This document shows positions 44,655-63,461 of a DNA stretch of 64,000 nt, piece after piece. The position numbers and the translations under genes are program-made. Below the pieces are notes generated by a model. The model searched no databases. It was not told where the DNA came from and saw only the letters and a list, made by a program, of their open reading frames with translations. The stretch comes from Acholoe squamosa (taxonomy: Eukaryota > Annelida > Polychaeta > Phyllodocida > Polynoidae). Within the stretch, counting starts at the first letter, position 1, and each line of letters opens with the position of its first letter. Location of the stretch: NCBI GenBank assembly GCA_949317995.1, contig OX439050.1:53197777-53261776 (forward strand), in the 5' to 3' direction.

Positions 44655-44890
44655 CCATCATCCTTTCCTCGTCCCTATTGAATGAGTGAATCGCCTTTGG
44701 TCGGAGCCACAGACAAGATTGAACAGCAAGACGGCACCAAAGGTGCTCACCAGTATGTCAGTATAAGCCTAATCCATATGTCATATTCCATATTTCACTA
44801 CTCCAGACCTTATATATGCTGTTCAATCTTGTCTGTGGCTCCGACCAAAGGCGATTCACTCATTCAATAGGGACGAGGAAAGGATGATGG
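44655..44890. repeat. perfect 74-bp inverted repeat with 88-bp spacer
   Basis: Arm 44655-44728 (starting CCATCATCCTTTCCTCGTCC) is matched without a mismatch by the complement at 44817-44890. No coding capacity. Perfect arms mean recent origin or ongoing gene conversion. It may be a MITE, but no terminal motif or target duplication is obvious, and it directly precedes the minisatellite at 44936. Confidence 0.9.
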
Positions 44891-44935
44891 CATCTCGTTC
44901 AGACGCTAGCATCGGTCATGAATGCAGCTCTGGGT

Positions 44936-45475: not shown

Positions 45476-46128
45476 ATCATAAAAAAAGAGTCAAAGTTAG
45501 AAGAAGGTCAATCCAGAGAAGGTCAACCCCCCCCCCCACACACACACACTTTTAGCTGTAAGGCTACTTTCCACGTCCTTACAAATCTTAATCAATGCAT
45601 GCGGCCCTCGAGACACTGTGCGGCCTTTAAGTGGTTAGATGTGCATCACAGAGTACACTGAAAATATAGACTAATAGAAAAGTGATCAGTGCAGATGAGT
45701 TTAGGTGATCTTTTCCAATAGATGATTGAAGGTGATCATTTTGATCACCTCATTTCTGCCACCAGGGGCCCCTACTATCCATCTATGTTATAATTTTATG
45801 AATCATGCCCGAGGATATGCATTGATTTAAAGCTATACTGAGAGTATTGGTGATCAAAATTTAATCATAACCACACAATATTGGAAATGTGAACCTGTAG
45901 AATTCATTTTACAAAATATGAATCTATTCAAAAGAGAATGATTCTGAGACAGGTACTTTAAGAGCTTAGACACTTTTTCTGTTTCAAATGTTTCATTCAG
46001 AAATGAGAATAACCAACCATTAGTAAAATGCAAACCTATACCATGTGGGGTCAATTCCAAAAGGGTGGATGTACTGATCACTTATTTTATATATATATAT
46101 TTCCTGTGTAGTGACCTAACTGACCATC
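45476..46128. other. non-coding flank of the retroelement
   Basis: No gene seen. GGTGATCATTTTGATCACC (45731-45749) is a perfect short palindrome and TGCCACCAGGGGCCCCTA (45757-45774) a CTCF-like match one G short. The last four bases, CATC (46125-46128), are the target-site duplication. Confidence 0.5.
46125..46128. other. target-site duplication, left
   Basis: CATC directly before the 5' LTR, repeated at 62141-62144. Four to six bases is normal for Ty3/Gypsy integrases. Confidence 0.8.
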
Positions 46129-46424
46129 TGATATACCATTTTATTATTCCACAAATTCTAACATATTTTGTATTAATCAAAGAAATATCTATGAAATTAA
46201 TACATAGGTTGGTTCTAAGAGCTATAAGAGCGCTCAAACTTTGTATAAGAGCGTTCATGCCCCACTGCACACCAGCCACAGTCAGTTAGACAGAGTTTAT
46301 GACATCAAAGGCTCCGACCTAATGGTTCACTGCACAATATAATAAAAATGAGGGTCTCAGTGTGCGACCTCATGGTTCAATGCACAAATTAATAACTTGT
46401 AAGTGAATGCAACCGGCCGTCACG

Positions 46425-46542
46425 GGTGCCTGAGCACCGCTGACGCCGTCATGAGTGTCTGAGCACTCTAAGGACTGAACAATGGGTTACATAAGCACGA
46501 CGCCATAACCTTCCGGTCGCTCTAGCGTCGCTCCTGAGCAAC
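46425..46542 (+). promoter_or_regulatory. three CTGAGC hairpins in U3
   Basis: Hairpin 1 (46425-46438) pairs GGTGC with GCACC, loop CTGA. Hairpin 2 (46453-46468) pairs GAGTGT with GCACTC, same loop, with paired G:C to A:T change. Hairpin 3 (46527-46542; 61195-61210 in the 3' LTR) pairs GTCGCTC with GAGCGAC, intact in the 3' LTR and broken by one A in the 5' LTR. They could be dyad protein-binding sites or RNA structures. Confidence 0.65.
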
Positions 46543-46736
46543 CTAGGTCAAATATCAAAAATTCTATGGAAAGCCCATAATTAGACGGTCAGAATGAGCC
46601 CAAGATCAAGGCGGAACTCCCAGTATTAAGGAAGTTACGCCATGGAGACTGAATCGACCTCCGAGTAAGCTACAGACAAACCGGCGGGAGTTACGCGCCT
46701 ATCCAGCGGGCATTATAATCTTGGCACATTCAGCTC

Positions 46737-46757
46737 CGCGCATGCCCAAAATGGCGG
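46737..46757 (+). promoter_or_regulatory. LTR core promoter candidate (NRF1-like, YY1-like)
   Basis: CGCGCATGCCC followed at once by AAAATGGCGG. Both motifs are hallmarks of TATA-less animal promoters. Also present at 61405-61425. Start site inferred to be just downstream. Confidence 0.45.
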
Positions 46758-46816
46758 TTATACAAGCATAAACGGTCGAGATATGAGGGTCTAAAGATGC
46801 AGAACCGACCAAGACA

Positions 46817-47068
46817 ATGGGGGCCATAGCGGCGTCCATGGGGGTCCTTTGTCCCCCTGTGACACTTGAAAGGGTCCCCTCAAACAATTGTAGAGTTAGG
46901 CAGATGCTGCTGGCTCCAGTCAGTCTGGAGGTGCTTTTCCAAGATTTGCTACAAATAGCCTGTCTGCACCTCCAGGAACACACAACACCAAGAACCGCTC
47001 TAGAGGTAACATCTCCAGTCATCTCCTGCTACCTGCTATACCACTGCACTATGGTGAAACTATGCTAG
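46817..47068 (+). CDS. short upstream ORF in the LTR R region
   Basis: An 83-codon frame starting at an ATG in strong context (A at -3, G at +4), repeated identically in the 3' LTR at 61485-61736. If transcription begins near 46770 this would be the first good start codon of the genomic RNA, so it is either a regulatory upstream ORF or a first coding exon; AGAGGTAACA at 47001-47010 resembles a splice donor. No similarity is recognised. It could equally be chance, since a longer minus-strand frame overlaps it. Confidence 0.25.
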   Translation: MGAIAASMGVLCPPVTLERVPSNNCRVRQMLLAPVSLEVLFQDLLQIACLHLQEHTTPRTALEVTSPVISCYLLYHCTMVKLC

Positions 47069-47348
47069 ACAGGCATTGGTTTCCTACCATTAGTGGCCAG
47101 AGGCTATCTTCTTCAAGACTTCCACCTGAGGGTAAAGTTATCCATTATTACATTATTCCTCTAAGCAGCAGGTCAGGAGCTAGGTGTGGGAACCCACCTA
47201 GAAGTATGCTGGACACTGTATTATTAATACCTCACAGGTGGAGTGGAACTGAACATTGTACTTTATAAATTACTGTATGTTTACTGTATGTGCAAACTAC
47301 CTACATACTACTGTATGATTGATATTTCTTACATGTTGCCTAAAGCTG

Positions 47349-47354
47349 AATAAA
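47349..47354 (+). terminator. polyadenylation signal in LTR
   Basis: AATAAA, with the functional copy expected at 62017-62022 in the 3' LTR. Confidence 0.55.
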
Positions 47355-47472
47355 CCAGTGACAACTGGAAATAACACTATTTATTATGAGCCTGCTATAT
47401 TTACTACATACACCACTAGTCATATGATATTTCTCATATGACAACTTGATCATGCCAATTACTAGTATGACA

Positions 47473-48487
47473 AAGTGGTGGAGAACATCCTACTAAGATC
47501 CCATATCTCACAGGCTCATAAAAATTAAAAGCTGGTAACACAACTAAAAACAATCATGCACACAGTAAGTTAAAGCTGGTACCGCAACTGGGAACAATCA
47601 TGCACACAGTAAATTAAAGCTGGTACCGCATACACACAGTTAGACCCACTCCACCCACCCAGTGACCTTGACCTTGACACCATACCCACCAAGGTCACCA
47701 GTGAGATCTCCCACACATCAGTGAGATCTCCCACACATCAGTGAGATCCCCCACACATCAATGAGATCTCCCACACATCAAGTGAGATCTCCCACACATC
47801 AATGAGATCTCCCACACATCAGTGAGATCTCCCACACATCAATGAGATCTCTCACACAACAGTAAGATCTCTCATATATCAGTGAGGTCTCCCAAAACGT
47901 CAGTGAGGTCTCCCAAAACGTCAGTGAGGTCTCCCAAACGTCAGTGAGGTCTCCCAAACGTCAGTAAGGTCTCCCAAACGTCAGTGAGGTCTCCCAAACG
48001 TCAGTGAGGTCTCCCACACGTCAGAGAGGTCTCCCACACGTCAGTGAGGTCTCCCACACGTCAGTGAGGTCTCCCACACGTCAGTGAGGTCTCCCACACG
48101 TCAGTGAGGTCCACCACACACATCAAGGCCTTATCAGTCAAGCTGGCAGAACAACACACAAAGACCTTACGTAGTCAGGGGCCTGTTGAAGAGGTCTCCC
48201 TCCCACCAAGATCTAGGAGGCCCACAGGAGGCAAACCAGCCTCCAATACAACAGACCCACACTCAGTAGACCCCACACCACCCACCCTGTCTACTCAGGG
48301 AACAACCAGTTCTCAGGGATCCAACATTTCCCAGGGATCTCTACAGGACGCCCAACTCACGCTATCTACCTCAGGGGAAGAAGGATCTGCCTCAGGGGGT
48401 GGATCCACACCCTCATCTAGATCCTCCACCCCAGCTCCAGCCTTCGACAGCCACTCCTCCAGAGACACCTCCCCCACACCCTCCATC
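47473..48487 (+). other. 5' leader of the retroelement
   Basis: Holds the expected primer-binding region right after the LTR (TGG at 47476 or 47479; the tRNA is not identified), about 2.6 copies of a 44-bp repeat (47525-47640, unit TTAAAGCTGGTACCGCAACT...), a TGACCTTGACCTTGACA run at 47663, the 20-bp array, and then an open but ATG-less stretch in the gag frame from 48068 on. Confidence 0.6.
47699..48110 (+). repeat. 20-bp tandem array in the leader, about 20 copies
   Basis: Units of CAGTGAGATCTCCCACACAT, grading along the array into CAGTGAGGTCTCCCAAACGT and then CAGTGAGGTCTCCCACACGT; three units have an extra base. Each carries TGA, so all frames are closed across the array. Each also has a donor-like CAGTGAGG. 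It is not a CRISPR array because there are no unique spacers. Confidence 0.95.
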
Positions 48488-50125
48488 ATGGACACCGATG
48501 AAGGCCCCCAACCTAATCAGACAGCTGAGAAGATAAGGGCCTATGAGAAGGCCATCCAAGATGCAGTTACTGCCCTAGAGACCAACAAGTCCCAGCAGGA
48601 GGAAAGGGAGAGGATCCTCAACCAACAACTGGCGGAGAGGAATGCAGCAATAGATGCTCAACAGAAGGCCATGGAAGATCAGCGGAAGTCCCTAGAGAGA
48701 CAACAACAACAGATAGCAGATCTCATGAAGATGGTATCATCCCAGACCCCACAACCTCACACACCTGCCATCACACCTGTTGTCACACCATCTGCCTCTG
48801 GATCCAAAGATGACATCATAATCTCCATGGTGTCCAACATGACCAAGCTCATAGACAATAAACAGCAGGACGACAGAAAGATCAGGATACATGAGGTAAC
48901 AAAACCCAAAACCTTTTCACACCCATCACCACTCATGTCAACAGCATTATTCATTGATCACAAATTCCCAGAATATCTGAAGGATAAGTACAAAGTGACA
49001 GACAGTGACACCATGGTAACATATTTACCCAAGTACCTCGAAGGACAAGCACTAGCTTGGTTTGAATCCTTCAGGGAAAGTGCCACACCTGATATGTTGA
49101 CATGGACCAATGTAGTGAATAAATTAAAAGAGTATTTTGCTACTCGAGACAATATAATCTCAAGGACTGCACTCCGTGCACAAAAGATAGATGAACCTGT
49201 TCTAGACTATGCATGCCATCTCAGGAAAGTGTGTAATGCCCAACGCCAGAACGATGAAACCCTAAGCAAGGCATTTACCCAAGGCATGAGGCCCTGGATC
49301 TCTATAGCTCTTGAGAACAAGAAAATAGACTCTTTTGACCAAGCCCTAGACCTAGCCCTAGAGGTTGAGACCCAAGAGAGATCTAGGAAGGTAAGGGATG
49401 CAGAAACCAACCCACAGCCTACTAAGAAAAAGGTCCAGGAAATCAGCACTAGTCCAGATGAAGATGTTAACCTAATGTCTAGTGCCCATGTAAGGCAACA
49501 GGAAGCTAAGGTTGCATCAAGAGACCCTACCGGTAGATACAGAGGAAATAACTATGACCCCAACTACCAATCCAATAGAGGTAGAGGTAGAGGGGGCAAC
49601 AACAACAACCGGGGGGGTCACAACAGCAGGAAAGACAACAGCTCTTCCAACTCCAACAATGGTAACTCTTCATACAGTGATAGGAGAGACAGAACCCCAA
49701 GTAATGGCAGATCCTATAATAATCAAGGATCCAACAGTAGGAGCCAGAGTCCACATAGGAACTACAACTCTGGATCCTACAACAACTCTGGATCCTACAA
49801 CAACAGCCAGGGTTCAAACAACTCTGGATCCTATAGTCAAGGATCCAACAGTAGGGGCCAGAGTCCACATAGGAACTACAACAGTGGATCCTACAACAAC
49901 AATGGCGCCTACAACAACCAGAGATCCAACAACTCCGGTCAATACAGCAACTCTGGTCAATATAACCAGGGTTCCAACCCACGCCAGGAGGATTACAAAC
50001 CTGACACAAGAGGTTACCAAGGGAACCAACAGAGTAACCCCCAAATACCACCTCATGTCATGGATCAAATCTCCAAACTCCTGGTGGCAAGCATCTCAAC
50101 CACCCCACAGAACCAGGAAAACTAG
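48488..50125 (+). CDS. gag: Gag
   Basis: The capsid polyprotein of the element. The frame is open from 48068 but its first ATG is at 48488 (A at -3, G at +4), giving 545 aa; upstream codons (low-complexity Ser/Thr/Pro) would need a non-ATG start or splicing. In numbering from 48104, residues 140-211 form a Gln/Glu-rich coiled coil, and 230-430 match the retrotransposon Gag/capsid fold, with YLEGQALAWF at 311-320 and a helix-rich tail. From about 477 to 650 is an RGG- and Asn/Ser/Gly/Tyr-rich region containing a 38-residue internal duplication. No CCHC zinc knuckle exists, which is unusual for the family. The stop TAG at 50123 sits inside a frameshift signal. Confidence 0.9.
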   Translation: MDTDEGPQPNQTAEKIRAYEKAIQDAVTALETNKSQQEERERILNQQLAERNAAIDAQQKAMEDQRKSLERQQQQIADLMKMVSSQTPQPHTPAITPVVTPSASGSKDDIIISMVSNMTKLIDNKQQDDRKIRIHEVTKPKTFSHPSPLMSTALFIDHKFPEYLKDKYKVTDSDTMVTYLPKYLEGQALAWFESFRESATPDMLTWTNVVNKLKEYFATRDNIISRTALRAQKIDEPVLDYACHLRKVCNAQRQNDETLSKAFTQGMRPWISIALENKKIDSFDQALDLALEVETQERSRKVRDAETNPQPTKKKVQEISTSPDEDVNLMSSAHVRQQEAKVASRDPTGRYRGNNYDPNYQSNRGRGRGGNNNNRGGHNSRKDNSSSNSNNGNSSYSDRRDRTPSNGRSYNNQGSNSRSQSPHRNYNSGSYNNSGSYNNSQGSNNSGSYSQGSNSRGQSPHRNYNSGSYNNNGAYNNQRSNNSGQYSNSGQYNQGSNPRQEDYKPDTRGYQGNQQSNPQIPPHVMDQISKLLVASISTTPQNQEN

Positions 50126-50161
50126 GATGTCACAGTGCCGATGGGCCAGTGCACTGTGACA
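50116..50161 (+). promoter_or_regulatory. -1 ribosomal frameshift signal (gag-pol)
   Basis: The last gag codons are GAA AAC TAG, forming the heptamer GGAAAAC at 50116-50122, a near-consensus slippery site of the G GAN NNN kind. Five bases on, TGTCACAGTGC (50128-50138) pairs perfectly with GCACTGTGACA (50151-50161) over a 12-nt loop. Pol is open in exactly the -1 frame from here. Heptamer, spacer and stem all fit known retroviral frameshift signals. Confidence 0.75.
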
Positions 50162-53100
50162 CCCCAAATACAAACAATCAATCAGGATTAACAAAGATCC
50201 AACCAGAGACAATTGCTAGTGCCAATCTACCATCTAACAGACAGAGACGTCCATCAGTGATACACATCACCCCACCAGATTCATCATCAAAGGATACAGG
50301 TGAGAGTACCAAGCTTTCTATTGTACTTCTTCAAAATGGCTGTATCAATGCAAATCTATATGATGTTTCAGATGTACAATGTTTGGTTGATACAGGTGCT
50401 ACTATCACCTGTGTCAGACAATCATTCCTCATGGATCTCCAAAAGAGATTCCATATCCAACTGAGGAAATCTAAAATCAACATCCACTTGGCAGATGGAT
50501 CGGTGTGTCATGTTAGACATTCAGCTATGCTGAACTTTAGAATCCAAGGTGTCAGATTCCAATACCAATTTGCTGTAATACCCAACCTCACACAGCCCAT
50601 TGTACTCGGCACAGATTTCCTAAGCACTACAAAATCTCAAATTGAATTTAATGTTGATCCTGAACAAATTCTCAAACCCATTAGGGCAGTGAGGGATTTT
50701 ACCATCCCTCCATTCTCTGAACTTGCAGTACTGGGTAAGGTCACATCTACTCAATCACTGCAAGGGAAAACTGGAGTAGTAGATAACCTCCAAAGAAATA
50801 ACAATGCCCCATATCTAGTCCAAAGGGCAGCAGTAACCCCCAGGGAAAATAACAAACATCCCCTAGTGTTACTCAACACCAGCAGGCGCCCACATAAAAT
50901 CAAAAAGGGTGCCATCATAGCTCTATTTCAGGAAGTCAAGGAATCTGATTTAGAAAAACCTCAACAGGTGTCAGACACTACCCCACACACTGATCAATCC
51001 ATCTCAGCCATACGGCCTGAGGATGTAACTCAATTCAGTGACACAGACTCAGACTGTGAGTCCACATATGCTGACCCTGAACCCAACTCAATCAGACTCT
51101 CTGAAATAGCTGCTATACATAGTGAGGCACATGACCTCGAGCCAGAATTGGAAGAGAATGTTCCACCAAAATCTGTGCTCACATCCAAAGATCAGCATGA
51201 TAGATTAAAATCACTGCTGACCAAGTATGATGATGTATTTGTAGGAAAAGATGGAGACATTGGTGCCACACACCTGTATACACACTCAATACATGTAAAA
51301 CCTGAGGCAGTACCATGTCATTTCCTACCATATAGACAAACACCAGAAAAACAGGCCGCAATAGGGGAAGAGTGTGAAAGGCTAGTACAACAGGGCATTC
51401 TAAGAGAATGTGCCGAGGGCCCCTGGGCCTCCAGATCCTTTTTAGTACAAAAATCATCGGGAGGCCATCGGCTCGTCACAGATTTTCGTTATTTGAACCA
51501 GAACACGATAAATCAAGCCTTATCTACACCCCGGGCCGATGACACTCTAGACATGATAGGGTCACTCAGACCAAGAGTATTCAGTAAGCTAGATGCCCAA
51601 CAGGGATTTTTTCAAATTCCTATAAGACAGGAGGATCAGCATAAAACCGCATTCATAGCAAATGACAAAAAATATGTCTATGAAAGGATGCCGATGGGTT
51701 TAGCGACGGCACCGGCGGGATTCTGCCATCTAGTCACATTAATTCTGAACAAACTCAAGTACAAATGTGCCCTACCATACCTAGATGACATATTGGTATT
51801 ATCACCATCAATCGAACAACACTTCCATGACCTGGAAGATGTGTTCAACAGCCTAAGAGTTGGTAAACTCAAACTGAAGAAATCAAAATGTGAATACTTC
51901 ATAGACAGAATAGACTTCTTGGGAATGAGAGTCACACCCATGGGACTACAACCATCTCCCACAAAGGTGGAGTCAATCAAAACCTTCCCAACACCAAAAT
52001 CAGTCAAAAATGTCCGATCCTTCACAGGCCTATGCCAATACTTCAAAAAGTTTATCAAAGGTTATGCCCAAATTGCTAGACCATTATATGATCTACAGAC
52101 ACATCTCAAAGCATTTGTCTGGACAGAAGAGGCAGATAATGCTTTCAAAACATTAAAGCATGCCCTCTGTACCAATGCTCTTCTCAGATATCCAAACTAT
52201 GAGAAAGAGTTCAGTTTGGCAACTGATGCTTCCAATGTGAGTTTAGGAGCTGTACTCTCACAGAGAGATAATGAAGGAGTGCTCAGACCAGTAGCCTTTG
52301 CAGGTAGAACCCTCTCAAAACATGAGAGAAATTACAATACCACAGAGAGAGAACTACTGGGAGTAGTGTATGGAGTATTACACTTCAGACACTATCTAGA
52401 GACTAGACACTTCCAATTATACACAGACCATGCAGCCCTAATCCCACTGCTAACCAATACAGGACTCACACATAGATGGGCCAGATGGGCTCTAGACATA
52501 CAGCAATTTTCATTCACCATCCAACACGTGAAAGGTGATGATAACACACCACCAGATGCTATGTCTAGAAGAGAATACCCAGACTCTGGACCCATGACTA
52601 ACCCTCCACCCCCACCAAGGAGAGTTAGAGCAGCCAGTAGAACCAAGTTTGCAAAAGTAACAAAGAAAGTACCATTCAAAAGGGATGATCCACCCAACAC
52701 CATTGAAAGGCCAGAGACACCCATTAGGGGTATCTTGAAGCAATCTACACACTATGTGTTTTGCCACTGTGAGAGAGAATACTCACAACTCTTTCCAGAT
52801 AATGACTTCGAGCCTATTGAATTCTCATCACTCAATCAGATAGTGAAGGTAACTCCTAAGGAGCCACCCTTCACCCCACCTGACTCAGATGATGAAGATC
52901 CAGAAGACACAATATATGCTATTACTCAAGCAACTTCTAAATCAGTCAGATTCTTTGAACCAATGCAGGGAGAGGAAACATCAAACCATTTGTGTCCTAT
53001 GACCACACGCTCAAAGACTAGAGAAATGATTCAGGAGGGCACACCAAAACCCCCCACACAATCACAAACTATTCTAAATGAGAAAAAGGTCACAGGAAAC

Positions 53101-54879
53101 AAACCTACCAAAACCCCACCTGCCAGGAAAAATGTCACAAAAGACACTGCATCTACTAAATCAAAGAACTCTGAGACAAAGAAGAATGACAAAAAGCAAA
53201 TTGTGCCTTTAAAGAAAAAGGTTGCCACTCCCATTAAGGCGAGAATAGGCCCTCCAAAGGAGCCTACACACCAAAACAAGAGTGACACACCCCAACAAAA
53301 GGCACAAGATAGGCCAATAGTCGATGAAAAAGAAAAAGAAAGAGACAGAATAAAACAACATGTGCTAGATATAAATCAACTACTGGATCAGATTCCCGAC
53401 ACATCCATCTCAGGTACAAACCTTGGCTTGGAACAAAGGAAAGACAAGGACCTATTGCCCCTCATACAATATCTTGAGGATGGGACCTTGCCTGCACCAA
53501 AAGCACAAGGAAACAGAATCATCAACCAAGGCCAGACATACACCTTGGTAAACGGTACATTAGTCCATATATGCCCCATAAATTGGAGAAAAACCAATAC
53601 TGTACCACTTCAAATTGTTATACCACAGCAATGGGTAACAAGTACACTACAGTATTTCCATGACTCACCTACTGGCGGCCATCTTGGTTCAAGTAGGATG
53701 CTGTCAGCACTCCGACCTAGGGTATATTGGAAGTCTATGCTAGCAGACACTACAAAATATGTTTCCACCTGCCACACATGCCTCACAGCAAAAAGGCAAG
53801 TACACTCACACAAAACACCAATGACAGTGAGAGAGTACATGACTTCACCAATGAAGTTCCTAAACCTAGACGCGGTGGGACCACTTCCCACAACTGCCAG
53901 GGGAAACAAACATATACAAGTCTGCATAGATTATGCTACCAGATATGCAACAGCTTGGGCTACTACTGACTTAAAAGCTGAGACAACAGCAGCAGAGTTC
54001 TACAAGAATATAATTTGTCATCATGGAACACCAGCCACTCTTCAAACAGACAATGGGACATGTTATACAGGTGCAAAGTTCACAAAGTTAACTAAACACC
54101 TCAAGATCAAACATAAATTCTCCTCACCATACAGGCCACAATCAAATGGGCTTGTAGAGAGATTCAATGCTAGCATAGGCACAGCACTCAGAGCATTCTG
54201 CTCAAAGCACCAAAACAATTGGGATTCATTTATTGAACCCATAACCTTTGCATTAAACAACACTGAATCCCAAACCACAGGATTCACCCCTTTCTTCCTA
54301 CTCCATGGAAGAAACCCAGCCACCCCAATGGACTTAGGGCTGGGAATACAGGAAGACATATCCACAGTAGCAGACCATGTAGCTAACATGATAACAAATC
54401 AAGATACCTCTAGGAGGAAAGCTATAGAAAGGGTCGCCAAGCTACAAAAGGAAAGAAAGGATAGATATGATAAGAAACTTACACCACAGGAAATCAAGGT
54501 CACCGACATGGTGTACCTAAACATACCAAGAATCCTGACCAATACAGAGTGTAAGAAACTTCAACCCCTTTTTATGGGACCATATGTTGTAGTAGATAGA
54601 CCTAGTTTGACAAGTGCCAAACTCAAAAACTTGGACACCAATCTATTGGTGGCCAGACCAGTGCACATAGACAGACTGAAAAAGGTTGTGGCTGTCAGAA
54701 ACAATGAATTTGCACACAGGCTTATTCCACATGAGGCCAAATACTACAGCAAAATTGTAAGGAACAAAAATGATATCACCCTTACAAGAGAAACCACAGG
54801 CATAGGCCCTATCAAGCCTAGGCCTGCACACCACATACTAAGAAAGACATCTAGGTGTGGTGCAGTTTCAAGAAATTAG
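50122..54879 (+). CDS. pol: Pol: protease, RT, RNase H, integrase
   Basis: Read by -1 frameshift from gag; there is no ATG near the start. Numbered from 50149: aspartic protease with DTGA at 81-84; reverse transcriptase with DFRYLN at 445, catalytic D482 and YLDD at 544-547; RNase H from TDAS (D693) to about 806; then a linker of about 290 residues, rich in Lys, Pro and Thr; integrase zinc finger (His1171 and its partners, then CHTC); DD35E core D1241, D1301, E1337; GPY/F module MGPYVV at 1476. The order RT-RH-IN marks Ty3/Gypsy. All catalytic residues are present and no stop interrupts the 1,576 codons. The long linker is atypical; no chromodomain is seen. Confidence 0.97.
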   Translation, partial: LGCHSADGPVHCDTPNTNNQSGLTKIQPETIASANLPSNRQRRPSVIHITPPDSSSKDTGESTKLSIVLLQNGCINANLYDVSDVQCLVDTGATITCVRQSFLMDLQKRFHIQLRKSKINIHLADGSVCHVRHSAMLNFRIQGVRFQYQFAVIPNLTQPIVLGTDFLSTTKSQIEFNVDPEQILKPIRAVRDFTIPPFSELAVLGKVTSTQSLQGKTGVVDNLQRNNNAPYLVQRAAVTPRENNKHPLVLLNTSRRPHKIKKGAIIALFQEVKESDLEKPQQVSDTTPHTDQSISAIRPEDVTQFSDTDSDCESTYADPEPNSIRLSEIAAIHSEAHDLEPELEENVPPKSVLTSKDQHDRLKSLLTKYDDVFVGKDGDIGATHLYTHSIHVKPEAVPCHFLPYRQTPEKQAAIGEECERLVQQGILRECAEGPWASRSFLVQKSSGGHRLVTDFRYLNQNTINQALSTPRADDTLDMIGSLRPRVFSKLDAQQGFFQIPIRQEDQHKTAFIANDKKYVYERMPMGLATAPAGFCHLVTLILNKLKYKCALPYLDDILVLSPSIEQHFHDLEDVFNSLRVGKLKLKKSKCEYFIDRIDFLGMRVTPMGLQPSPTKVESIKTFPTPKSVKNVRSFTGLCQYFKKFIKGYAQIARPLYDLQTHLKAFVWTEEADNAFKTLKHALCTNALLRYPNYEKEFSLATDASNVSLGAVLSQRDNEGVLRPVAFAGRTLSKHERNYNTTERELLGVVYGVLHFRHYLETRHFQLYTDHAALIPLLTNTGLTHRWARWALDIQQFSFTIQHVKGDDNTPPDAMSRREYPDSGPMTNPPPPPRRVRAASRTKFAKVTKKVPFKRDDPPNTIERPETPIRGILKQSTHYVFCHCEREYSQLFPDNDFEPIEFSSLNQIVKVTPKEPPFTPPDSDDEDPEDTIYAITQATSKSVRFFEPMQGEETSNHLCPMTTRSKTREMIQEGTPKPPTQSQTILNEKKVTGNKPTKTPPARKNVTKDTASTKSKNSETKKNDKKQIVPLKKKVATPIKARIGPPKEPTHQNKSDTPQQKAQDRPIVDEKEKERDRIKQHVLDINQLLDQIPDTSISGTNLGLEQRKDKDLLPLIQYLEDGTLPAPKAQGNRIINQGQTYTLVNGTLVHICPINWRKTNTVPLQIVIPQQWVTSTLQYFHDSPTGGHLGSSRMLSALRPRVYWKSMLADTTKYVSTCHTCLTAKRQVHSHKTPMTVREYMTSPMKFLNLDAVGPLPTTARGNKHIQVCIDYATRYATAWATTDLKAETTAAEFYKNIICHHGTPATLQTDNGTCYTGAKFTKLTKHLKIKHKFSSPYRPQSNGLVERFNASIGTALRAFCSKHQNNWDSFIEPITFALNNTESQTTGFTPFFLLHGRNPATPMDLGLGIQEDISTVADHVANMITNQDTSRRKAIERVAKLQKERKDRYDKKLTPQEIKVTDMVYLNIPRILTNTECKKLQPLFMGPYVVVDRPSLTSAKLKNLDTNLLVARPVHIDRLKKVVAVRNNEFAHRLIPHEAKYYSKIVRNKNDITLTRETTGIGPIKPRPAHHILRKTSRCGAVSRN

Positions 54880-55704
54880 AAACAAGATTGAGATACCAAA
54901 GTCATAAGATTTTCAAAATGTATTCCAAATTCTCTTCATCCACACATAAGACATGTGTGACTGATAATGAATTACTATGTATATAAAGCCAATCAAATTT
55001 GTAAATATATCAGTAGGTTATTGCCTCTGAAAGGGTCAAAGACTGGGACCCCCCAAGTAAAGCAGACATGAAGTCTAAGAAGAGTAAGGGTAACACAATG
55101 GAGTGTCTAAAGCCTAATCCCCACATGAAAGAGCGCGCTATGCCAACACAGCAGTCTATAGAGATCAATTGACCTTATAAGCTACCCTCAGACAACTGTC
55201 TAGACGGTCATGAATGGCTGTCCTGGATGACAGGAGGAGCTAATTACCAGTACACAGACTACACAATAGACCCCACAGTTAGCAGACACTGGAGATTAAT
55301 GCATTGTCTCCAGAGAAACAATACCAGGCCCACAATGGATGTGGGTAGGGTAGGCTACATAAGAAGCACTGTGGACCATAGCCCACCATCAGTCTTCATC
55401 CAGCTGCAGTCTGGAACACAAGTCTACAGGACCCCACTTGGGAATTAGCCAGCCCACTTCTCCATTAGGAGAGACTGCACTAGGATAAAGAACACACCTA
55501 CTTCACCTTCAACCTGACCTTACCATTTACTGGTCAACCTCTATAGACTCACCGGACATATTGCCAAGACAGCTCAATCTTGCAAAGGTACAGTTTGAAC
55601 CACTTCATTTAAAGTGTTACACCATACACTTAGACTTTACCAGCACCAAATCACTACAAATTTGACAAGACTTTAAAACAGCAAACTTGCTTTACACAAG
55701 CACC
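54880..55704 (+). other. pol-env gap
   Basis: 825 bp without a long frame other than the small candidate at 55227-55448. Pyrimidine-rich stretches ending in AG at about 55468 and 55546 are possible splice acceptors for an env mRNA. Both are predictions from local sequence only. Confidence 0.5.
55227..55448 (+). CDS. possible small accessory ORF
   Basis: 73 codons from ATG; the frame is open for a further 20 or so codons upstream. The translation is of mixed, protein-like composition (several Trp and Tyr, no low complexity), beginning MTGGANYQYTDY, and matches no family I know. It could be an accessory protein, an exon of a spliced env message, or chance. No strong start context. Confidence 0.3.
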   Translation: MTGGANYQYTDYTIDPTVSRHWRLMHCLQRNNTRPTMDVGRVGYIRSTVDHSPPSVFIQLQSGTQVYRTPLGN

Positions 55705-58329
55705 ATGGGGAGACTGAGAGTTTCACCCATACTGCTAACTATGCTGTTATTATATACTATAAAACCACTTACTGCAGGCTATACACCTGTGGTGAGACAA
55801 AACATAGGAGTAGTATTCAAACCTAGCCCTCAACCATTGGTCAATGGACATACAACCACAACACTGTTGTTAGCTATTCCCTACAAGATACCTCGGGCAC
55901 CCGTTACCCAAGGATCCATAAGGGATAGAATACTCCATTTGACCACTCCTACTCTACAAGATCATACCTCTGGCCAAATTATCCAACAAGCTAAGGAGCT
56001 AGACACCTTGCTGGAAATTGCAGACAAGGAGATAAATGAAACACTAGCCTCCATCAAATTGTTCTTATCCAACCCCATAAACACATTGGACAAGGCCAAA
56101 AGAGAGGCCATACTGGGTTTTCTAGCACCCCTGTTTCGCGGTGTGCTAGGTCTAGCCACAGTAGAAGATGTAAACCAAGTAATGGGACAGCTCAAGAACA
56201 TAGATGAAATACTAAGAAAATTTGCTAAACAGGATCAGGAAGCAGCTAATCTCATTGAAAAGATCACAGACAGACAAGATAAGTTTGTCAAAGCATACAT
56301 CCAAGATAAGAAGGTACTGGACAGCACAATCAACACCATAGGTGACACTGTCAACCTGTGGGCCTCTAACATGTCCAGGTCACTTGACTCATATTCAAGG
56401 CACGAGAAAACTCAAAGGGAGAAAATGCAAGTATTAAATGATGCACTAATTATCATAGCAGCAAGAATGAATACAGTTCAATCACTGCAAAGGACAAATG
56501 CAGCCCTGAGGATGCTATCATCAGGGATCCTAACCCCTGATATAGTACCACCCTCAGACCTTGCTAGATACCTAATTGACATTAATAACAAACTTAGGAT
56601 TACACACCCTGGAGCACAAGTCGCAATTAATGACTTAGATTTCTATTATTCACAGAAGCTGACCTCATACACTTACTCAGCTCACCATATATATATTCAT
56701 CTGGACATTATAATTCAATCTACCACCTCAACCTTCAAACTGTACCAAATGATTACATCACCCATGCCTATAGACACACAGGAGACCCCCACCAGAGGAG
56801 TCACCAAACTACAAACCACAACTGAGTTTCTAGCAGTATCTTACGATGAATCATTATTTATCGAATTGGACTCAGCAGATATGCAGGCATGTGAAGGTAC
56901 TACAGTAAAGGTATGCAGAGATGTAAATGGTAGAATCAATAAACACAGGCCTACATGCCCTGTAGCCATTTTTACTAACCAGGCTCAACAGATTAAGGAA
57001 CATTGCAAGTTTACAGTTTCACCACTGCAAGCACCTACCACCCATGCTATTTCCATTTCTGAAGATGAGTATCTGGTCACTACTAATGAACCCCATTACT
57101 TTATCAACTGCCATGGTAAAACGTCTGAAACTCGAAAAGCCCAGTCCTACTCAATCATAGGTGTACCCTGTGGGTGCACGATCAGTGTAGGAGAATTTTC
57201 TCTTCCAAACACAAGGTTGCCCTGTAACTCAACCTTATCATTTCATTACATTCTCGAGACAATTAATTTACCATTCATGGCAGCACTTAACAAAATTTCT
57301 GAAACCAAACCAGATGAAAGAGAGAATCTTCCAAATTTCCCAGTAGTAAACCTTTCTAGAACCTTAGAAAAACTACGGGAAAATCCAATCATGGATGATA
57401 TTACTCAACTAAATTTAGAGCCCTTTGCCAAAACAGTATTAAAAGATGCCTCCAACCTTAATAAGGAAATGGAAACGCGCTACGAGGAATCATACCTACG
57501 TCGAGTTACAGAGCATCCAATCTTCCAAAGCTTAGCACTCATCCTAGGGATATCAGCTCACATTTTTATAGTATACATACTACTCAAATTATACAGACTA
57601 GGAGGGACTGTAGCCTACCTGCCTACAGCCAAAGCATTCAGACTAGTCACCGAGCTGCCCCTACACAAATTGCTCCCAGATAAGAATCCTACCAAATTAA
57701 CCCCTACAGAGGAAACCCACACCCCCTTCCTCACAATTCAGGAAACCCACACCCTGATAATTGCTATATTATTCACCCTGACCATCTACTCAGCCTACAG
57801 AATAATGAAGTACCTTAAGAAATTTGCACAGACACACTGTGGCAAGAAAAATGTGGCCAAGCGCACAAACCCCACAATATATTTTAAAATATATTGTGGA
57901 GACTCAAACTTCGCGCTACCCTTGAGGCCAATACCACATGAATTTGATGAGATTAAATCAGCAGCTGCCCCTACCTATAAGGATATAGTGGTTAAAACCT
58001 TCCCACTACCTAAGGCTATATTTACCTGGAATGGACCAGCAGTTATAACAACACAGAGAGGAGAATTTGCTTATCACCTCCCTCAGGTGATACACCTACC
58101 TTGGCGCACTAGGTTCAGTACTATACCAGCCCTTAAAAACAAAGGACTGTACTACTCCATGCTTCTCCAAAATGATTGTGGCACCAGCCCGGTGACCATG
58201 ACAGCACTGGAAAATACAACAGATATAATTATTGACGAACAACAGGAGGAGACCGCAAGGTCAAACATGCAGACTATTGCTAATTTTCTAAACCACCAGC
58301 CCTCCCCGGTGACTGTGGAAACAGCCTAG
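55705..58329 (+). CDS. env: Env, F-like fusion glycoprotein with C-terminal extension
   Basis: 874 aa from the ATG at 55705 (CACCATGG context). Residues 1-24 form a signal peptide. KAKR at 130-133 is a furin-like site, followed by a hydrophobic, Gly/Phe-rich segment (GFLAPLFRGVLGLA) like the fusion peptide of baculovirus F and errantivirus Env proteins, then long heptad-rich helices (about 150-260), conserved-looking cysteines (about 400-510) and a membrane anchor at 608-627. Those proteins normally end soon after the anchor; this one continues with a second hydrophobic segment (684-700) and about 170 more residues of unknown fold. The frame has no break. Probably made from a spliced mRNA; role inferred as cell entry or intercellular transfer. 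Confidence 0.85.
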   Translation: MGRLRVSPILLTMLLLYTIKPLTAGYTPVVRQNIGVVFKPSPQPLVNGHTTTTLLLAIPYKIPRAPVTQGSIRDRILHLTTPTLQDHTSGQIIQQAKELDTLLEIADKEINETLASIKLFLSNPINTLDKAKREAILGFLAPLFRGVLGLATVEDVNQVMGQLKNIDEILRKFAKQDQEAANLIEKITDRQDKFVKAYIQDKKVLDSTINTIGDTVNLWASNMSRSLDSYSRHEKTQREKMQVLNDALIIIAARMNTVQSLQRTNAALRMLSSGILTPDIVPPSDLARYLIDINNKLRITHPGAQVAINDLDFYYSQKLTSYTYSAHHIYIHLDIIIQSTTSTFKLYQMITSPMPIDTQETPTRGVTKLQTTTEFLAVSYDESLFIELDSADMQACEGTTVKVCRDVNGRINKHRPTCPVAIFTNQAQQIKEHCKFTVSPLQAPTTHAISISEDEYLVTTNEPHYFINCHGKTSETRKAQSYSIIGVPCGCTISVGEFSLPNTRLPCNSTLSFHYILETINLPFMAALNKISETKPDERENLPNFPVVNLSRTLEKLRENPIMDDITQLNLEPFAKTVLKDASNLNKEMETRYEESYLRRVTEHPIFQSLALILGISAHIFIVYILLKLYRLGGTVAYLPTAKAFRLVTELPLHKLLPDKNPTKLTPTEETHTPFLTIQETHTLIIAILFTLTIYSAYRIMKYLKKFAQTHCGKKNVAKRTNPTIYFKIYCGDSNFALPLRPIPHEFDEIKSAAAPTYKDIVVKTFPLPKAIFTWNGPAVITTQRGEFAYHLPQVIHLPWRTRFSTIPALKNKGLYYSMLLQNDCGTSPVTMTALENTTDIIIDEQQEETARSNMQTIANFLNHQPSPVTVETA
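57872..57899. repeat. perfect 28-bp palindrome in env
   Basis: CCACAATATATTTT followed at once by its exact complement, with no loop, within codons 723-732, between the second hydrophobic segment and the C-terminal domain. Confidence 0.95.
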
Positions 58330-58478
58330 ACTGCCCACAGCCTAGGCTGCCCCCAGTCCACCACCAGGAGACAACACATCAGAGACAGTATTCAGAACTT
58401 TTCGGACAATTTGCCGGCCCTGAAAAGGGCCTTTGGGATGGCGGGTTTTTACACCCTAGGTTTCAGTCAGTCGGGATC
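58330..58478. other. gap between convergent env and antisense gene
   Basis: 149 bp between the env stop and the antisense stop. It contains GGCCCT-GAAA-AGGGCC (58416-58431), a six-pair stem closed by a GNRA-type tetraloop. No polyadenylation signal is seen for the antisense transcript here. Confidence 0.6.
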
Positions 58479-58958
58479 CTACCACAGATCCTCGGGTTCA
58501 ACATCAATGGGAGAGTCCGGGGCCGAGTCCGAGCCATACATATGGCCGTGATCCTGCTCCCACTCAGCGAGCCGGGCCTCCAGCATCCCCAGTCCATACT
58601 CAGCAGCCGTGGATGGATTCCCGGATGCCGCAAGATCGAGGAGGGATGCCGCCAACAAATAATCCCATAGCACTCGCTCCCGCGGCCCTAGGTTATAATC
58701 CATGGGCCAGAAACCCATACTGCCCAAGGCCCTAGTCAGAAGGGCCACAGTGGCCCCCCGACGCAAGGCTGAGCCCAGGAAATAATGGCAGGAGTAACTA
58801 CAGACCATCACATCACCATGCTCAATGATCTCTTTGAAATTACTCACTATGTACCCATAATGGATGGTCTGGTTAGACTCAACCAGGGCCCTAGCTGGAC
58901 TCCCCACCTCCATCACCTGGGGGACAGGCAGAGCAAAGAGAGCTTGTAGGTGGGCCAT
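58479..58958 (-). CDS. antisense accessory protein, 159 aa, unknown family
   Basis: The only long frame between env and the 3' LTR, opposite in direction to gag-pol-env. The frame is open for 233 codons from 59180; the ATG at 58958 lies in a near-ideal ACCATGG context, so 159 aa is the likely product. Residues 1-20 are hydrophobic, 33-110 are mixed and probably folded (with CSYSC at 53-57), 98-110 look helical, and 133-158 are strongly acidic (ending in a Glu/Asp-rich tail and Trp). No family is recognised. A TATATAA box on the minus strand lies at 59238-59244. Position and orientation recall the antisense HBZ gene of HTLV-1, an analogy only. A captured host gene is another possibility. Confidence 0.6.
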   Translation of the reverse strand: MAHLQALFALPVPQVMEVGSPARALVESNQTIHYGYIVSNFKEIIEHGDVMVCSYSCHYFLGSALRRGATVALLTRALGSMGFWPMDYNLGPRERVLWDYLLAASLLDLAASGNPSTAAEYGLGMLEARLAEWEQDHGHMYGSDSAPDSPIDVEPEDLW

Positions 58959-59020
58959 GGTACTACAGCAGTGACTTCCAGAGAGGAACTGATGCTCCAA
59001 TACCAGCCACACACTCCTTA

Positions 59021-60776
59021 AATGGACACACACACACCCCCCCCCCCCCCACCCTGAACTGTCCACTGACACCAAGCTAGGCACTGCCACAGACACATGC
59101 CAAAATCTGGCACCTAACACCTCAAGTGCCACCACTGCATGAGCACACCAGGGAGGAGACTCACATCTCACTCCTGACACACCTCCACTGTCAATGAAAT
59201 TATCAAAGTATTAGAAAAAAAAAAAAAAAAAAAAAAATTATATACACAGCCACTTGTTGATGTATAATATGAAAATCTATGGTATTCTCACAAAATCAAT
59301 GATTAAGGCGCGCATATACGCGCAAAATTGCGAAATTGCAAATTACAAATTGTAAAATTGTACAAATCTAACATTAATATACATGAATGCAGGTAGATAA
59401 CTAAGACAGTTTTTGTACCCACTAGCACTTGTATACTATGCCAAGGTTTACTTAAAGTAACACACTTTAGGTATCCAAGAAAATTGTTGGAAAAATGAAT
59501 GAAAAAAAAAAAAATTGTTGAGAAAATTGTTGACATAAAACATGTTTACTTAAGATACTCACCAAATAAATCTCTTTCAGGGACACATACTCAAAAGGCT
59601 AAGGGAAAAGTCAATCAAGCAGCGGCCCACTGCCGAAATTGCCAATTAATACCCATATAGCAAATCAATGAGTAACTCAAAGACAAACAAGCCCATTGTA
59701 CATGAAGTACTTTGTTTTTCCGGCCCTCGGAAAAATTTGTCTCAAATCCCATAAATTGAATAGTGTAATCTAGATTGTACGTTTGTACCCAATTTGCACA
59801 CTAAAATTGTATGTTTGCACACCAGATTGTACGCTTGTACCCAATTTGCACACTAAAATTGTATATTTGCACACCAGATTGTACGCTTGTACCCAATTTG
59901 CACACTAAAATTGTATGTTTGCACACCAGATTGTACGCTTGTACCCAATTTGCACACTAAAATTGTATGTTTGCACACTAGATTGTAAGTTGTATCCAAT
60001 TTACATTTGATTTATATGTTGCACATTATACTGTATGTCTGTACCCAATTCATACACTGAAGTCAGATTTTAAAAAAAAAAAATCAACATTTCTATGTAT
60101 ATCCAAGCTGTACGCAAAATTATATTTGTACATACAGAAACTATCAATTGAACGCAAAATTATACATTGGCATACTAAAATTGCCAAATGCACGCGAAAT
60201 TATATATTTGCACACTAAAATTGCCAAATATACGCGAAAATTATATATTTGCACACTCAAATTGCCAAATGTACGCGAAATTATATATTTGCACACTAAA
60301 ATTGCCAAATATACGCGAAAATTATATATTTGCACACTTAAATTGCCAAATGTACGCAAAAATTATATATTTGCATACTGAAATTGTCAATTGAACGCAA
60401 TTACACGCGAAATTGTAAATTTGCACACTGAAATTGTCATTTATGTTCAATTTGCACGCTAAATTGAATATTAAATGCCAAAATTGCACACTATTTGCCA
60501 AATTGTATGTTGTACATAAAAGATGGAAAATTGTACCCAATATTGATGTTACATAAGCAAATAAGCTATGGTATGGTAAGATATAGAAACTCGGAAATGT
60601 ACTTATACCCAGGAGAAAATTGTTTATACTGACAAAGCTCTACCACAAAAATTGCATTTGAAGCACTCCCCATTACTTCAAATCCTCTTACAAAACAGTA
60701 TATAACTCCAAAATAAGGTATAAATTGTATAAATTGTACATTCCCTCGGCGAAATGACGGAGTTTCGCATTCTTTT
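59021..60776. repeat. AT-rich minisatellite block before the 3' LTR
   Basis: No credible gene. A C run at 59037-59050 and an A run at 59215-59237 are followed by AT-rich sequence built from GCACACTNAAATTG and TACGCGAAATT units. Four 52-bp units occupy 59772-59979 (AGATTGTACGCTTGTACCCA...), and about six 40-41-bp units occupy 60150-60395 (ACGCGAAATTATATATTTGC...), alternating in an 81-bp higher order. Open frames in the second array on both strands reflect the repeat. Confidence 0.9.
59238..59244 (-). promoter_or_regulatory. TATA-like box for the antisense gene
   Basis: TATATAA on the minus strand, about 280 bp upstream of the antisense ATG and next to a long A/T run. Inference. Confidence 0.3.
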
Positions 60777-60789
60777 GGGGGAGAGGGAG
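60777..60789 (+). other. polypurine tract
   Basis: GGGGGAGAGGGAG ends 7 bp before the 3' LTR, the expected place of the plus-strand primer. Confidence 0.85.
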
Positions 60790-60796
60790 TATTCTA

Positions 60797-62140
60797 TGAT
60801 ATACCATTTTATTATTCCACAAATTCTAACATATTTTGTATTAATCAAAGAAATATCTATGAAATTAATACATAGGTTGGTTCTAAGAGCTATAAGAGCG
60901 CTCAAACTTTGTATAAGAGCGTTCATGCCCCACTGCACACCAGCCACAGTCAGTTAGACAGAGTTTATGACATCAAAGGCTCCGACCTAATGGTTCACTG
61001 CACAATATAATAAAAATGAGGGTCTCAGTGTGCGACCTCATGGTTCAATGCACAAATTAATAACTTGTAAGTGAATGCAACCGGCCGTCACGGGTGCCTG
61101 AGCACCGCTGACGCCGTCATGAGTGTCTGAGCACTCTAAGGACTGAACAATGGGTTACATAAGCACGATGCCATAACCTTCCGGTCGCTCTAGCGTCGCT
61201 CCTGAGCGACCTAGGTCAAATATCAAAAATTCTATGGAAAGCCCATAATTAGACGGTCAGAATGAGCCCAAGATCAAGGCGGAACTCCCAGTATTAAGGA
61301 AGTTACGCCATGGAGACTGAATCAACCTCCGAGTAAGCTACAGACAAACCGGCGGGAGTTACGCGCCTATCCAGCGGGCATTATAATCTTGGCACATTCA
61401 GCTCCGCGCATGCCCAAAATGGCGGTTATACAAGCATAAACGGCCGAGATATGAGGGTCTAAAGATGCAGAACCGACCAAGACAATGGGGGCCATAGCGG
61501 CGTCCATGGGGGTCCTTTGTCCCCCTGTGACACTTGAAAGGGTCCCCTCAAACAATTGTAGAGTTAGGCAGATGCTGCTGGCTCCAGTCAGTCTGGAGGT
61601 GCTTTTCCAAGATTTGCTACAAATAGCCTGTCTGCACCTCCAGGAACACACAACACCAAGAACCGCTCTAGAGGTAACATCTCCAGTCATCTCCTGCTAC
61701 CTGCTATACCACTGCACTATGGTGAAACTATGCTAGACAGGCATTGGTTTCCTACCATTAGTGGCCAGAGGCTATCTTCTTCAAGACTTCCACCTGAGGG
61801 TAAAGTTATCCATTATTACATTATTCCTCTAAGCAGCAGGTCAGGAGCTAGGTGTGGGAACCCACCTAGAAGTATGCTGGACACTGTATTATTAATACCT
61901 CACAGGTGGAGTGGAACTGAACATTGTACTTTATAAATTACTGTATGTTTACTGTATGTGCAAACTACCTACATACTACTGTATGATTGATATTTCTTAC
62001 ATGTTGCCTAAAGCTGAATAAACCAGTGACAACTGGAAATAACACTATTTATTATGAGCCTGCTATATTTACTACATACACCACTAGTCATATGATATTT
62101 CTCATATGACAACTTGATCATGCCAATTACTAGTATGACA
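60797..62140 (+). repeat. 3' LTR
   Basis: Same length as the 5' copy with four transitions (61169, 61208, 61324, 61444). Here the third CTGAGC hairpin is intact. The polyadenylation signal used by the element is expected at 62017-62022. Confidence 0.95.
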
Positions 62141-62144
62141 CATC
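62141..62144. other. target-site duplication, right
   Basis: CATC, identical to 46125-46128. Confidence 0.8.
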
Positions 62145-63461
62145 CTACACTATGGGCACCACCTGCCATCCGCTGCCCTCCAACCCTGGAGGATCCATCA
62201 CCCTCCTCACTCAATAACCAAGCCTGATCTTCCCAATACACATTTATACAAGGCCCTTCCACCACCCCAAAAATAAATGAATAAATAACTGTTATGGACC
62301 TCCTCCTCCCAATATATAGAGGATGGGTTAGGAGATGGAAGGTGGCTTAGCGGAGGGGAGGTGGATTTCCATCTGGCCTTCACATATCCTTCATAGTCAC
62401 CAAAGGAAGGGTATAAGTGAGAGGGGTGCGGGTCTGGGAGGTCATACTCAATGGTCAATTTCTCCTGACAGCAGTGTGAAAAACCATATGCTGTGGATGA
62501 GAAGAAGAGGTCGGGCTGGGTGATATGTGAATGCCGGGTGCTTCTCGCCGTGTAGCGGCGCCTGTTTTCGCATTGAAATTGAACTACTCGGCGAGCTTCT
62601 CAATGGGGAATCAGGCCGAGCTGCTCTCGCACAATGACCGCCATATTTGAGCAGTTGACGCGAGCATAATGCGAGGACCGTGAGCTATTGATTGACTCAC
62701 CCCAAAAGACGGCGGCCGTCGACCACCATTGCAACCCTCTTCTCTCAGCCGCCCGGGGCTGGGGAATGGTGGAGGGGGAGGGCACTAGGTAAATTGCCGA
62801 CCACGAGGAGTTGTTTCTGTGGCCAAGGTGCAAGCTCCACAACGGGCGAGGAAGAAAGATGGCGATATGAAAGTTTTTAGTCGAGGGCCGATGATACCAA
62901 ACCTATAACCAAAACAACGCTATTCTAAATATCAAAGTTGTGGCTGTTTCCCGGCAAATATGGAGTATATTTGATGTCTCAAAAGAGGTGGGGTGGGGGG
63001 GAGCTGTAGTTCTGCAATTGATACCTACATGTATCTACCCTTAAAGAGCAAGTGCCACCTCAGTGCCTTGTGCGGCACCTCGGCCGGCTGGTCTGGGCGA
63101 TATTGGGGGACATGAGGATCGACTGGGGTGACGCCAGGCGGCGAGGGGCGGTATTAAGTTTAAGGTATCACAGTGGTGATTCTATGCAGCAGACGGTGGG
63201 TGTCACCTGCTTGTGGTGATAATGAAGACCTCAGGTCGTATTGTGCTTGGAGACCTTTGGGTGGGAGGTGAGGGGGAGGAGTCAGGGATGACTGATGGCT
63301 TCAGAGTGGACCACATCCCACACTGCCAGCAGGGTGTAGGATCATACTGGGATCAACCCTTTAAGGACAGCAAAATACATTATAGTCCAGTAAATTCTTT
63401 CAAAAAGTGTGCATGTTGGTATGAAAGCATGGAATTTGGTCCAGAGGTACTCCAAGATTAA

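Follow-up and report, generated by a model that had tools for sequence, protein, structure and literature searches.

An antisense gene with a candidate histone-type 3' end and diverged alleles in an env-bearing Ty3/Gypsy element of the polychaete Acholoe squamosa

What is encoded on the minus strand between env and the 3' long terminal repeat (LTR) of an annelid retroelement? The question is posed by a 64,000-nucleotide stretch of contig OX439050.1 of Acholoe squamosa (positions 53,197,777–53,261,776, assembly GCA_949317995.1, 1.48 Gb in 63 contigs), here called the window, which holds an endogenous retrovirus-like element of the Ty3/Gypsy type. An open reading frame (ORF) of 159 amino acids (aa), antisense to gag, pol and env, had been singled out from the letters alone (the original prediction) as an HBZ-like gene, after the antisense gene of human T-cell leukemia virus (HTLV). 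Comparison of sibling copies establishes, as far as sequence can, that this is a real protein-coding gene under purifying selection, and the explanation we consider probable is that the endogenous retrovirus carries a self-contained antisense accessory gene with its own promoter, a histone-type 3' end, a trans-acting protein and swapped alleles.

The frame was found where it had been placed, in an ACCATGG start context, and the accompanying claim that the plus strand has no long frame there is borne out, since none of the ATG frames between 58330 and 60796 is as long as 90 aa. The minus strand is open at length as proposed, although for 243 codons from stop to stop (58479–59210) and not for 233. 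The argument that stops should come every 20–25 codons, however, overstates the surprise, as the longest stop-free run averaged 119 codons in 2000 dinucleotide shuffles of 58330–59210 with both strands scored. Of these shuffles, 2.9% contained an ATG-initiated ORF of at least 159 aa, and 0.1% a run of 243 or more codons without a stop. Frame length by itself is moderately unusual, and it is the sibling copies that provide the decisive evidence. The 84 codons upstream of the ATG are read as non-coding because insertions and deletions (indels) there shift the frame. In 14 copies aligned base by base, picked among those with ungapped ORFs, the upstream flank holds one to four indels per copy, many of them in homopolymers, and upstream-extended open frames range from 169 to 266 aa.

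Genome copies were ranked by their likeness to the related Env protein P0002, a criterion that is blind to the antisense region but favours intact envs, and 50 of the 52 so ranked were fetched. The antisense frame is open over all 159 codons in 42 of these 50, damaged in four and missing together with the gene in four, so that stops and frameshifts in siblings, named beforehand as the sign of a spurious gene, are the exception. The damage amounts to one stop each in L011 and L050, two frameshifts in L030 and a 66-bp in-frame deletion in L038, which removes residues 32–53 and leaves the frame otherwise open. In the two copies outside the 50 fetched, the frame appears open in a protein search. 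Most of the family thus carries the gene, whole or partial (46/50), and 44 of these 46 copies show no indel in the ORF relative to the window. A protein search of the genome returned open frames in 150 of 150 cases, these being the best-scoring of 1673 candidates and hence selected by score.

The distribution of substitutions points the same way. Between the window and copy L021 there are 66 differences, falling 20, 11 and 35 on codon positions 1, 2 and 3, with a synonymous divergence (dS) of 0.432, a nonsynonymous divergence (dN) of 0.085 and a dN/dS of 0.198, against 0.92, 1.60, 1.31, 0.46 and 2.24 in the other five frames; the value of 0.46 belongs to the sense frame that shares its third positions with the antisense frame and contains six stops. 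The same six-frame control in five copies (L011, L019, L020, L021, L022) gave 0.145–0.267 for the antisense frame and 0.31–2.54 for the others. The mean for 34 diverged copies is 0.218, with values from 0.190 to 0.254, and in the later copies L095–L098, of which L095 is the same place as L025, it is 0.250–0.277. A ratio near 1, another result proposed to speak against a gene, was not seen. When the same substitutions were placed at random, the mean ratio was 0.75–0.84 and 64–87% of runs gained a stop. Not one of 3000 neutral runs came down to the observed ratio of L021, L025 or L052, and 0.1% did so for L033. The env gene yields 0.10–0.16 in four copies, and pieces of pol yield 0.03 (L100, 11 differences) and 0.58 (L101, only 3 differences). 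Among single-copy variants of the two large allele classes described below, the ratio of nonsynonymous to synonymous changes, with stops counted as nonsynonymous, is 0.49 (class A) and 0.74 (class C), compared with 0.20 and 0.30 for shared variants, as expected of a protein that would be constrained during element replication and released after insertion. The proposal that the segment between env and the 3' LTR encodes a protein in antisense is therefore supported both by the open siblings and by dN/dS.

Promoter-like and 3'-end-like signals adjoin this ORF and do not lie in the 3' LTR (Table 1). Their conservation was assessed in 80 copies, namely the window, 44 env-sampled copies and 35 picked by ORF similarity, all with ungapped ORFs; the duplicates L001, L060 and L074 and the gapped L030 and L038 were left out. 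The start codon stands in ACCATG in 80/80 copies and in ACCATGG in 79. Both the TATA-like and the initiator-like motif occur in 73 copies, and the distance from the first T of TTTAAG to the predicted start is 32 nt in 72 of these and 31 nt in one.

Downstream of the stop codon, the Rfam family RF00032 (Histone3) gives a full-length match of 23.5 bits (E 5.7e-4 in 951 bases searched), on the antisense-message strand only. The stem-loop GGCCCTTTTCAGGGCC is preceded by CCAAA and followed after 12 nt by GAAAAGTTCTG, a candidate counterpart of a U7 site. A 6-bp stem, a 4-nt loop, the stop distance and the strand are all as in histone-type 3' ends, in which the stem-loop typically lies 25–60 nt past the stop codon. 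The strict motif is found once in both strands of the 64 kb and in none of 150 shuffled windows, and a 6-bp GG stem with a TTTC loop once in 150 shuffled windows. The stem-loop is retained 47–49 nt past the stop in 78/80 copies; the RF00032 score is identical in L042 and L052, and the gene-less copy L034 has none. As a control for host histone stem-loops, one pattern gave four genome matches, and the two fetched scored 32.9 bits (L105) and 33.5 bits (L106), with the match cut by the end of the piece; neither adjoins a frame recognisable as histone. In L106 (1–475, minus strand) the stem-loop lies about 100 nt past a frame with an acidic stretch, which has no Pfam match and no similarity to the antisense protein.

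Table 1. Coordinates of the antisense unit and of the element that carries it
Feature	Coordinates in window	Strand	Evidence or remark
Antisense gene, 159 aa, ACCATGG start	58479-58958	minus	dN/dS, neutral simulation, indel-free sibling copies
Candidate TATA-like TTTAAG, in CCATTTAAGG	59017-59022	minus	78/80 copies
Initiator-like TCAGTTCC (TCAGTT), predicted start A 58990	58985-58992	minus	75/80 copies
Predicted 32-nt leader	58959-58990	minus	last 17 nt: between-class divergence (dxy) 0.348
Candidate histone-mRNA-type 3' stem-loop GGCCCTTTTCAGGGCC	58416-58431	minus	47 nt past stop; RF00032
Purine-rich GAAAAGTTCTG, candidate histone downstream element	58393-58403	minus	inside RF00032 match; 76/80 copies
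Unit absent as a whole from third lineage	58372-59161		L026, L029, L034, L035; junction 421 times genome-wide
Endogenous retrovirus-like element	46129-62140		16 kb, Ty3/Gypsy, env-bearing, complete
5' LTR	46129-47472	plus	1344 bp, TG...CA, 99.7% identity to 60797-62140, target-site duplication CATC
3' LTR	60797-62140	plus	1344 bp; partner of 5' LTR
gag	48488-50125	plus	Pfam Ty3_capsid 3.7e-7, Retrotrans_gag 2.6e-5
pol, frame stop to stop, ATG at 50431	50038-54879	plus	Pfam RVT_1, RT_RNaseH, Integrase_H2C2, rve
env, 874 aa, related to Baculo_F-domain proteins	55705-58329	plus	P0001-P0005

The protein itself is acidic (17.5 kDa, isoelectric point 4.6 in copy L002). An alignment of 29 allele rows, 81–99% identical to the window protein, contains central invariant stretches such as ATVALL and PRERVLWDYLLA, and the acidic C-terminus, which ends in LW and had been pointed out beforehand, is largely conserved. 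The CSYSC motif noted alongside it is not: annotated class A copies read CNYSC and the class C copies shown lack the first Cys, whereas Y55, S56 and C57 are invariant in the 29 rows. Searches of 5.8 billion sequences returned nothing at E 10, either with the single protein (774 word-sharing candidates) or with the 29-row alignment (8000 best candidates). No Pfam family matched at E up to 10, hence no histone, basic leucine zipper (bZIP) or TRP28; PHROGs and PDB sequences gave nothing useful, and IMG/VR and GTDB scans no relative. The one PDB hit, a coronavirus domain (E 0.04), was rejected as not credible, since no stretch passes alone. The AlphaFold2 model is all-helical and of low confidence, with a mean predicted local distance difference test score (pLDDT) of 45.9 for the protein alone and 49.4 with the 29 rows.

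A further property of the locus emerges when the 80 copies are clustered, as they form two large classes (40 and 31 copies) besides nine other copies in five small clusters. Relative to the window, class C diverges by about 14% over the ORF, about 2–3% in env and 1–3% in the 3' flank (where ungapped). For dxy, 16 class A copies were set against 24 of class C, the rest of the 40 and 31 having been fetched without env or having env matches that were gapped or short. It amounts to 0.021 in env (1030 bp), 0.022 in the 3' flank and 0.020 at 59001–59200, against 0.144 in the ORF. Fixed differences between the classes number 60 of 477 in the ORF versus 7 in env, where there are also 5 shared polymorphisms. 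The 5' edge of the peak falls between 58976 and 58975, dxy dropping from the high value of the last leader bases (Table 1) to 0.006 in the next 15 bases and 0.047 in the next 20, and the stem-loop shows 0.002. Neutral divergence between the classes is about 0.05–0.08 (env dS 0.051 and 0.061, pol dS 0.067 in one copy), and their LTRs differ by 7–8% including gaps (two class C-type copies), so that the ORF dS of 0.43 is six to eight times the neutral value; the synonymous excess of the ORF over env in copy L011 has P=1.5e-13. Decay of CpG sites does not explain the peak, because 9 of 66 differences are in CpG context (40 are transitions). Divergence is also high from about 59940 in the AT-rich tandem repeats before the 3' LTR, which is taken for repeat misalignment.

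Since the dS of the ORF lies far above that of the backbone, the alleles are older than the backbones that carry them. The copies thus display, at the sequence level, at least two deeply diverged allele classes on far less diverged backbones, and we infer that alleles of diverged lineages were swapped by template switching and then kept. No donor lineage of the diverged alleles was found, and intermediate alleles exist at 92, 94 and 96% identity. The strongest competing account is that one or a few accidental recombinations placed old sister-lineage ORFs into a modern backbone, followed by neutral amplification, and to this we give somewhat less than an even chance. It would agree with the presence of only two large classes besides the nine scattered copies, with the 7 fixed and 5 shared env differences, and with the diverged LTRs of the two class C-type copies, which for that reason belong to distinct subfamilies. 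It fits less well with a peak confined to the ORF and the 17 nt before the ATG, while promoter, 3' untranslated region and stem-loop are near-uniform, and with the existence of several intermediate alleles. The most far-reaching reading accepts a complete antisense S-phase unit with a histone-type end and sees the allele classes as under long-term balancing selection, as an antagonist or immunity-specificity locus deciding compatibility between element copies or with host genotypes; we regard this as doubtful.

The gene is not carried by every lineage. Exact junction strings of 35–36 bases, with zero mismatches allowed and counts that are therefore lower bounds, occur genome-wide 791 times for non-class-C copies with the antisense gene, 343 times for class C copies with it and 421 times for copies without it, making the family large (more than a thousand copies) and the gene-less junction commoner than that of class C. 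The gene-less junction holds bases that are not placeable on either side by eye, and both a deletion and an original absence of the unit are possible, deletion being the simpler since the gene sits at an identical position in both main classes. The two ends of the unit, at 58363–58380 and 59146–59166, resemble each other by eye in a short string (ACCAGG...AGAC...CACATC), possibly a trace of the unit's gain or loss. In the diverged env families L091–L094, tblastn found no match to the antisense protein within 1.5-kb flanks. In copy L052, the sequence upstream of the gene was considered as a cassette edge and rejected, as it reads by eye as a nested LTR-like insertion near 59010. That insertion (L052:1–980) directly precedes the antisense gene of the copy and contains TATATAA as well as AATAAA.

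The self-contained accessory gene would then work as follows. RNA polymerase II is predicted to start at about 58990 from the adjacent TATA-like/initiator core promoter and to yield an mRNA of only some 0.6 kb that begins with the 32-nt leader and whose 3' end would be formed as in replication-dependent histone mRNA, by the stem-loop and a U7-type element. An end of this type would mean a message without poly(A), favoured in S phase or dividing cells. The acidic, probably helical protein may act in trans as an accessory factor, a guess based on gene-less copies prospering beside gene-bearing ones and on the ORF-limited diversity, which suggests a varying interaction partner. Host counter-defence and control of the element's own activity are equal candidates for its role, and it is probably not a DNA-binding bZIP repressor. 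Allele classes would have moved between backbones via template switching in reverse transcription and been retained by diversifying or balancing selection, and copies without the gene would be complemented in trans or not need it.

Several observations weigh against this account. TTTAAG is weak as a TATA box and both promoter motifs are short, and retention in 78/80 copies, of the stem-loop as of TTTAAG, partly reflects shared descent and choice, given how the copies were sampled. The stem-loop has the same stem, TTTC loop, preceding CCAAA, following purine-rich element and short stop distance as replication-dependent histone genes, but the protein is neither a histone nor a member of another Pfam family, the tail past the stem is GGC and not ACC as in the genome stem-loops L105 and L106, and 23.5 bits is below the Rfam gathering score of 34, so that a scan of 45000–63000 at gathering gave no match. 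A plain fold of the region is not unusually stable either (z −0.55), and the case for a histone-type end consequently depends on the particular motif together with its conservation, its position and the strand on which it lies. No function can be assigned to the protein by relation, as no homologue was found, and the gene is dispensable in at least some contexts, given 421 gene-less junctions next to at least 791 + 343 with the gene.

How far does the comparison with HBZ carry? Like HBZ and APH-2 of primate T-lymphotropic viruses and ASP of human immunodeficiency virus 1 (HIV-1), this gene runs antisense towards the 3' side of a provirus. Unlike them, it has no bZIP, no long opposing sense frame and a predicted promoter of its own, and no sequence similarity to them was found. 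HBZ proteins are characterised by a C-terminal bZIP domain, LxxLL motifs and basic nuclear regions. No LxxLL occurs in the window protein or in copy L062, and the window protein has one Lys, seven Arg and no run of three basic residues, leaving position and strand as the parts of the HBZ analogy that hold. An HBZ-type regulator, a nuclear repressor of the sense promoter translated from an LTR-driven spliced antisense transcript, is accordingly improbable. Apart from position and orientation, what speaks for it is a string resembling a splice acceptor (CATTGACAG/TGGAGG), which 72/80 copies have some 225 nt upstream of the ATG, with an AG-to-ATG distance of 218–231 nt. The same string is present in the four fetched gene-less copies, however, and with promoter-like and 3'-end signals next to the ORF there is no need for a start in the LTR. 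Splicing from the LTR through this string was therefore ranked below the adjacent promoter.

Quite improbable, too, is the view that the coding signal is real but an antisense or sense-strand RNA is the main product, the gene being mainly an antisense silencer or decoy; a review describes non-coding roles as frequent for antisense retroviral RNAs (PMC10186651), but codon-wise constraint with freer third positions, as in the comparison with L021, is the signal of a protein. A chance open frame in GC-rich non-coding element sequence would suit the share of shuffles reaching this ORF length, the lack of a homologue and the low mean pLDDT, yet it can practically be dismissed in view of a dN/dS of about 0.2 in 34 diverged copies, where most control frames lie around 1 or higher, neutral simulations that fail to match, and 42/50 env-sampled copies fully open.

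Among genes already described, those closest to this one are the antisense additional ORFs found in Ty3/Gypsy elements of plants and fungi, and the original statement that no such gene is known in this group is incomplete. In the plant elements Grande (gene23), RIRE2 and Retand (TRP28) and in the fungal Boty, antisense ORFs termed aORF-3R lie downstream of pol and ahead of the 3' LTR (PMC7264820, PMC11963269). Grande gene23 is transcribed from its own upstream promoter (PMC7264820), and all Retand clusters surveyed have antisense coding regions, 97% of them with TRP28 (PMC11963269). As excerpted there, these share with the annelid gene the antisense ORF between pol and the 3' LTR, the orphan protein, a long 3' internal region and, often, tandem repeats. 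The present element differs in also having env and in lacking a TRP28 domain, and neither a histone-type 3' end nor ORF-limited allele divergence is described for aORF-3R in those excerpts (PMC7264820, PMC11963269). Rotifer LTR elements with extra ORFs are known (PMC5408684, as excerpted), and an annelid survey names antisense ORFs, within its excerpted text, in the introduction only (PMC8220671). Titles and abstract beginnings in the open-licence literature brought up no retroelement gene reported to bear a histone stem-loop.

The host element belongs to a recently active family and is a young copy in which gag, pol and env are all open; its LTRs differ at 4 of 1344 positions without a gap, and CATC stands on either side. 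In all 52 genome copies scored, ranked by Env similarity, the env match is open. The best Env relatives are ENA proteins with 56–60% identity (P0001 at 60%, with a precomputed PF12259, Baculo_F), two relatives carry PF12259, and the best named relative, from Argopecten, has 22% identity. Scanned directly against Pfam, the window Env itself had no Baculo_F hit, and IMG/VR scans showed no relative. The gag-pol-env order, the Ty3-type pol and the two PF12259-bearing Env relatives liken the element to errantivirus-like Ty3/Gypsy elements with a Baculo_F-type Env. It is set apart from errantiviruses by its 16-kb length, 1.3-kb LTRs, long second C-terminal part of Env and antisense gene. Within Env (57750–58329) a second hydrophobic stretch is seen by eye, and the C-terminal part beyond it is common to P0001, P0002, P0004 and P0005, an arrangement unusual for a fusion protein. 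A perfect palindrome of 28 nt lies within env at 57872–57899. The leader before gag contains a 20-bp tandem array of 20.9 copies (47699–48119), and 52-bp and 41-bp arrays precede the 3' LTR (59772–60398), the 41-bp units carrying TATATAA on the minus strand. Outside the element, a 51-bp tandem repeat (44888–45661) leaves two plus-strand frames open.

For the wider family of retroelements, two features of this locus, the candidate histone-type 3' end and the confinement of the allele peak to the gene, were not seen described elsewhere in the literature as far as it was accessible. A 2023 review states that there is no evidence to date of endogenous retrovirus antisense proteins like those of HTLV and HIV-1 (PMC10186651); by the standard selection test, the endogenous retrovirus described here does code for an antisense protein. 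If the histone-type 3' end is true, it would explain why RNA sequencing on poly(A)-selected material could miss such genes, and expression would be linked to S phase. The ORF-limited peak, finally, may let one genome show by what means an accessory gene is diversified and retained in a retroelement.
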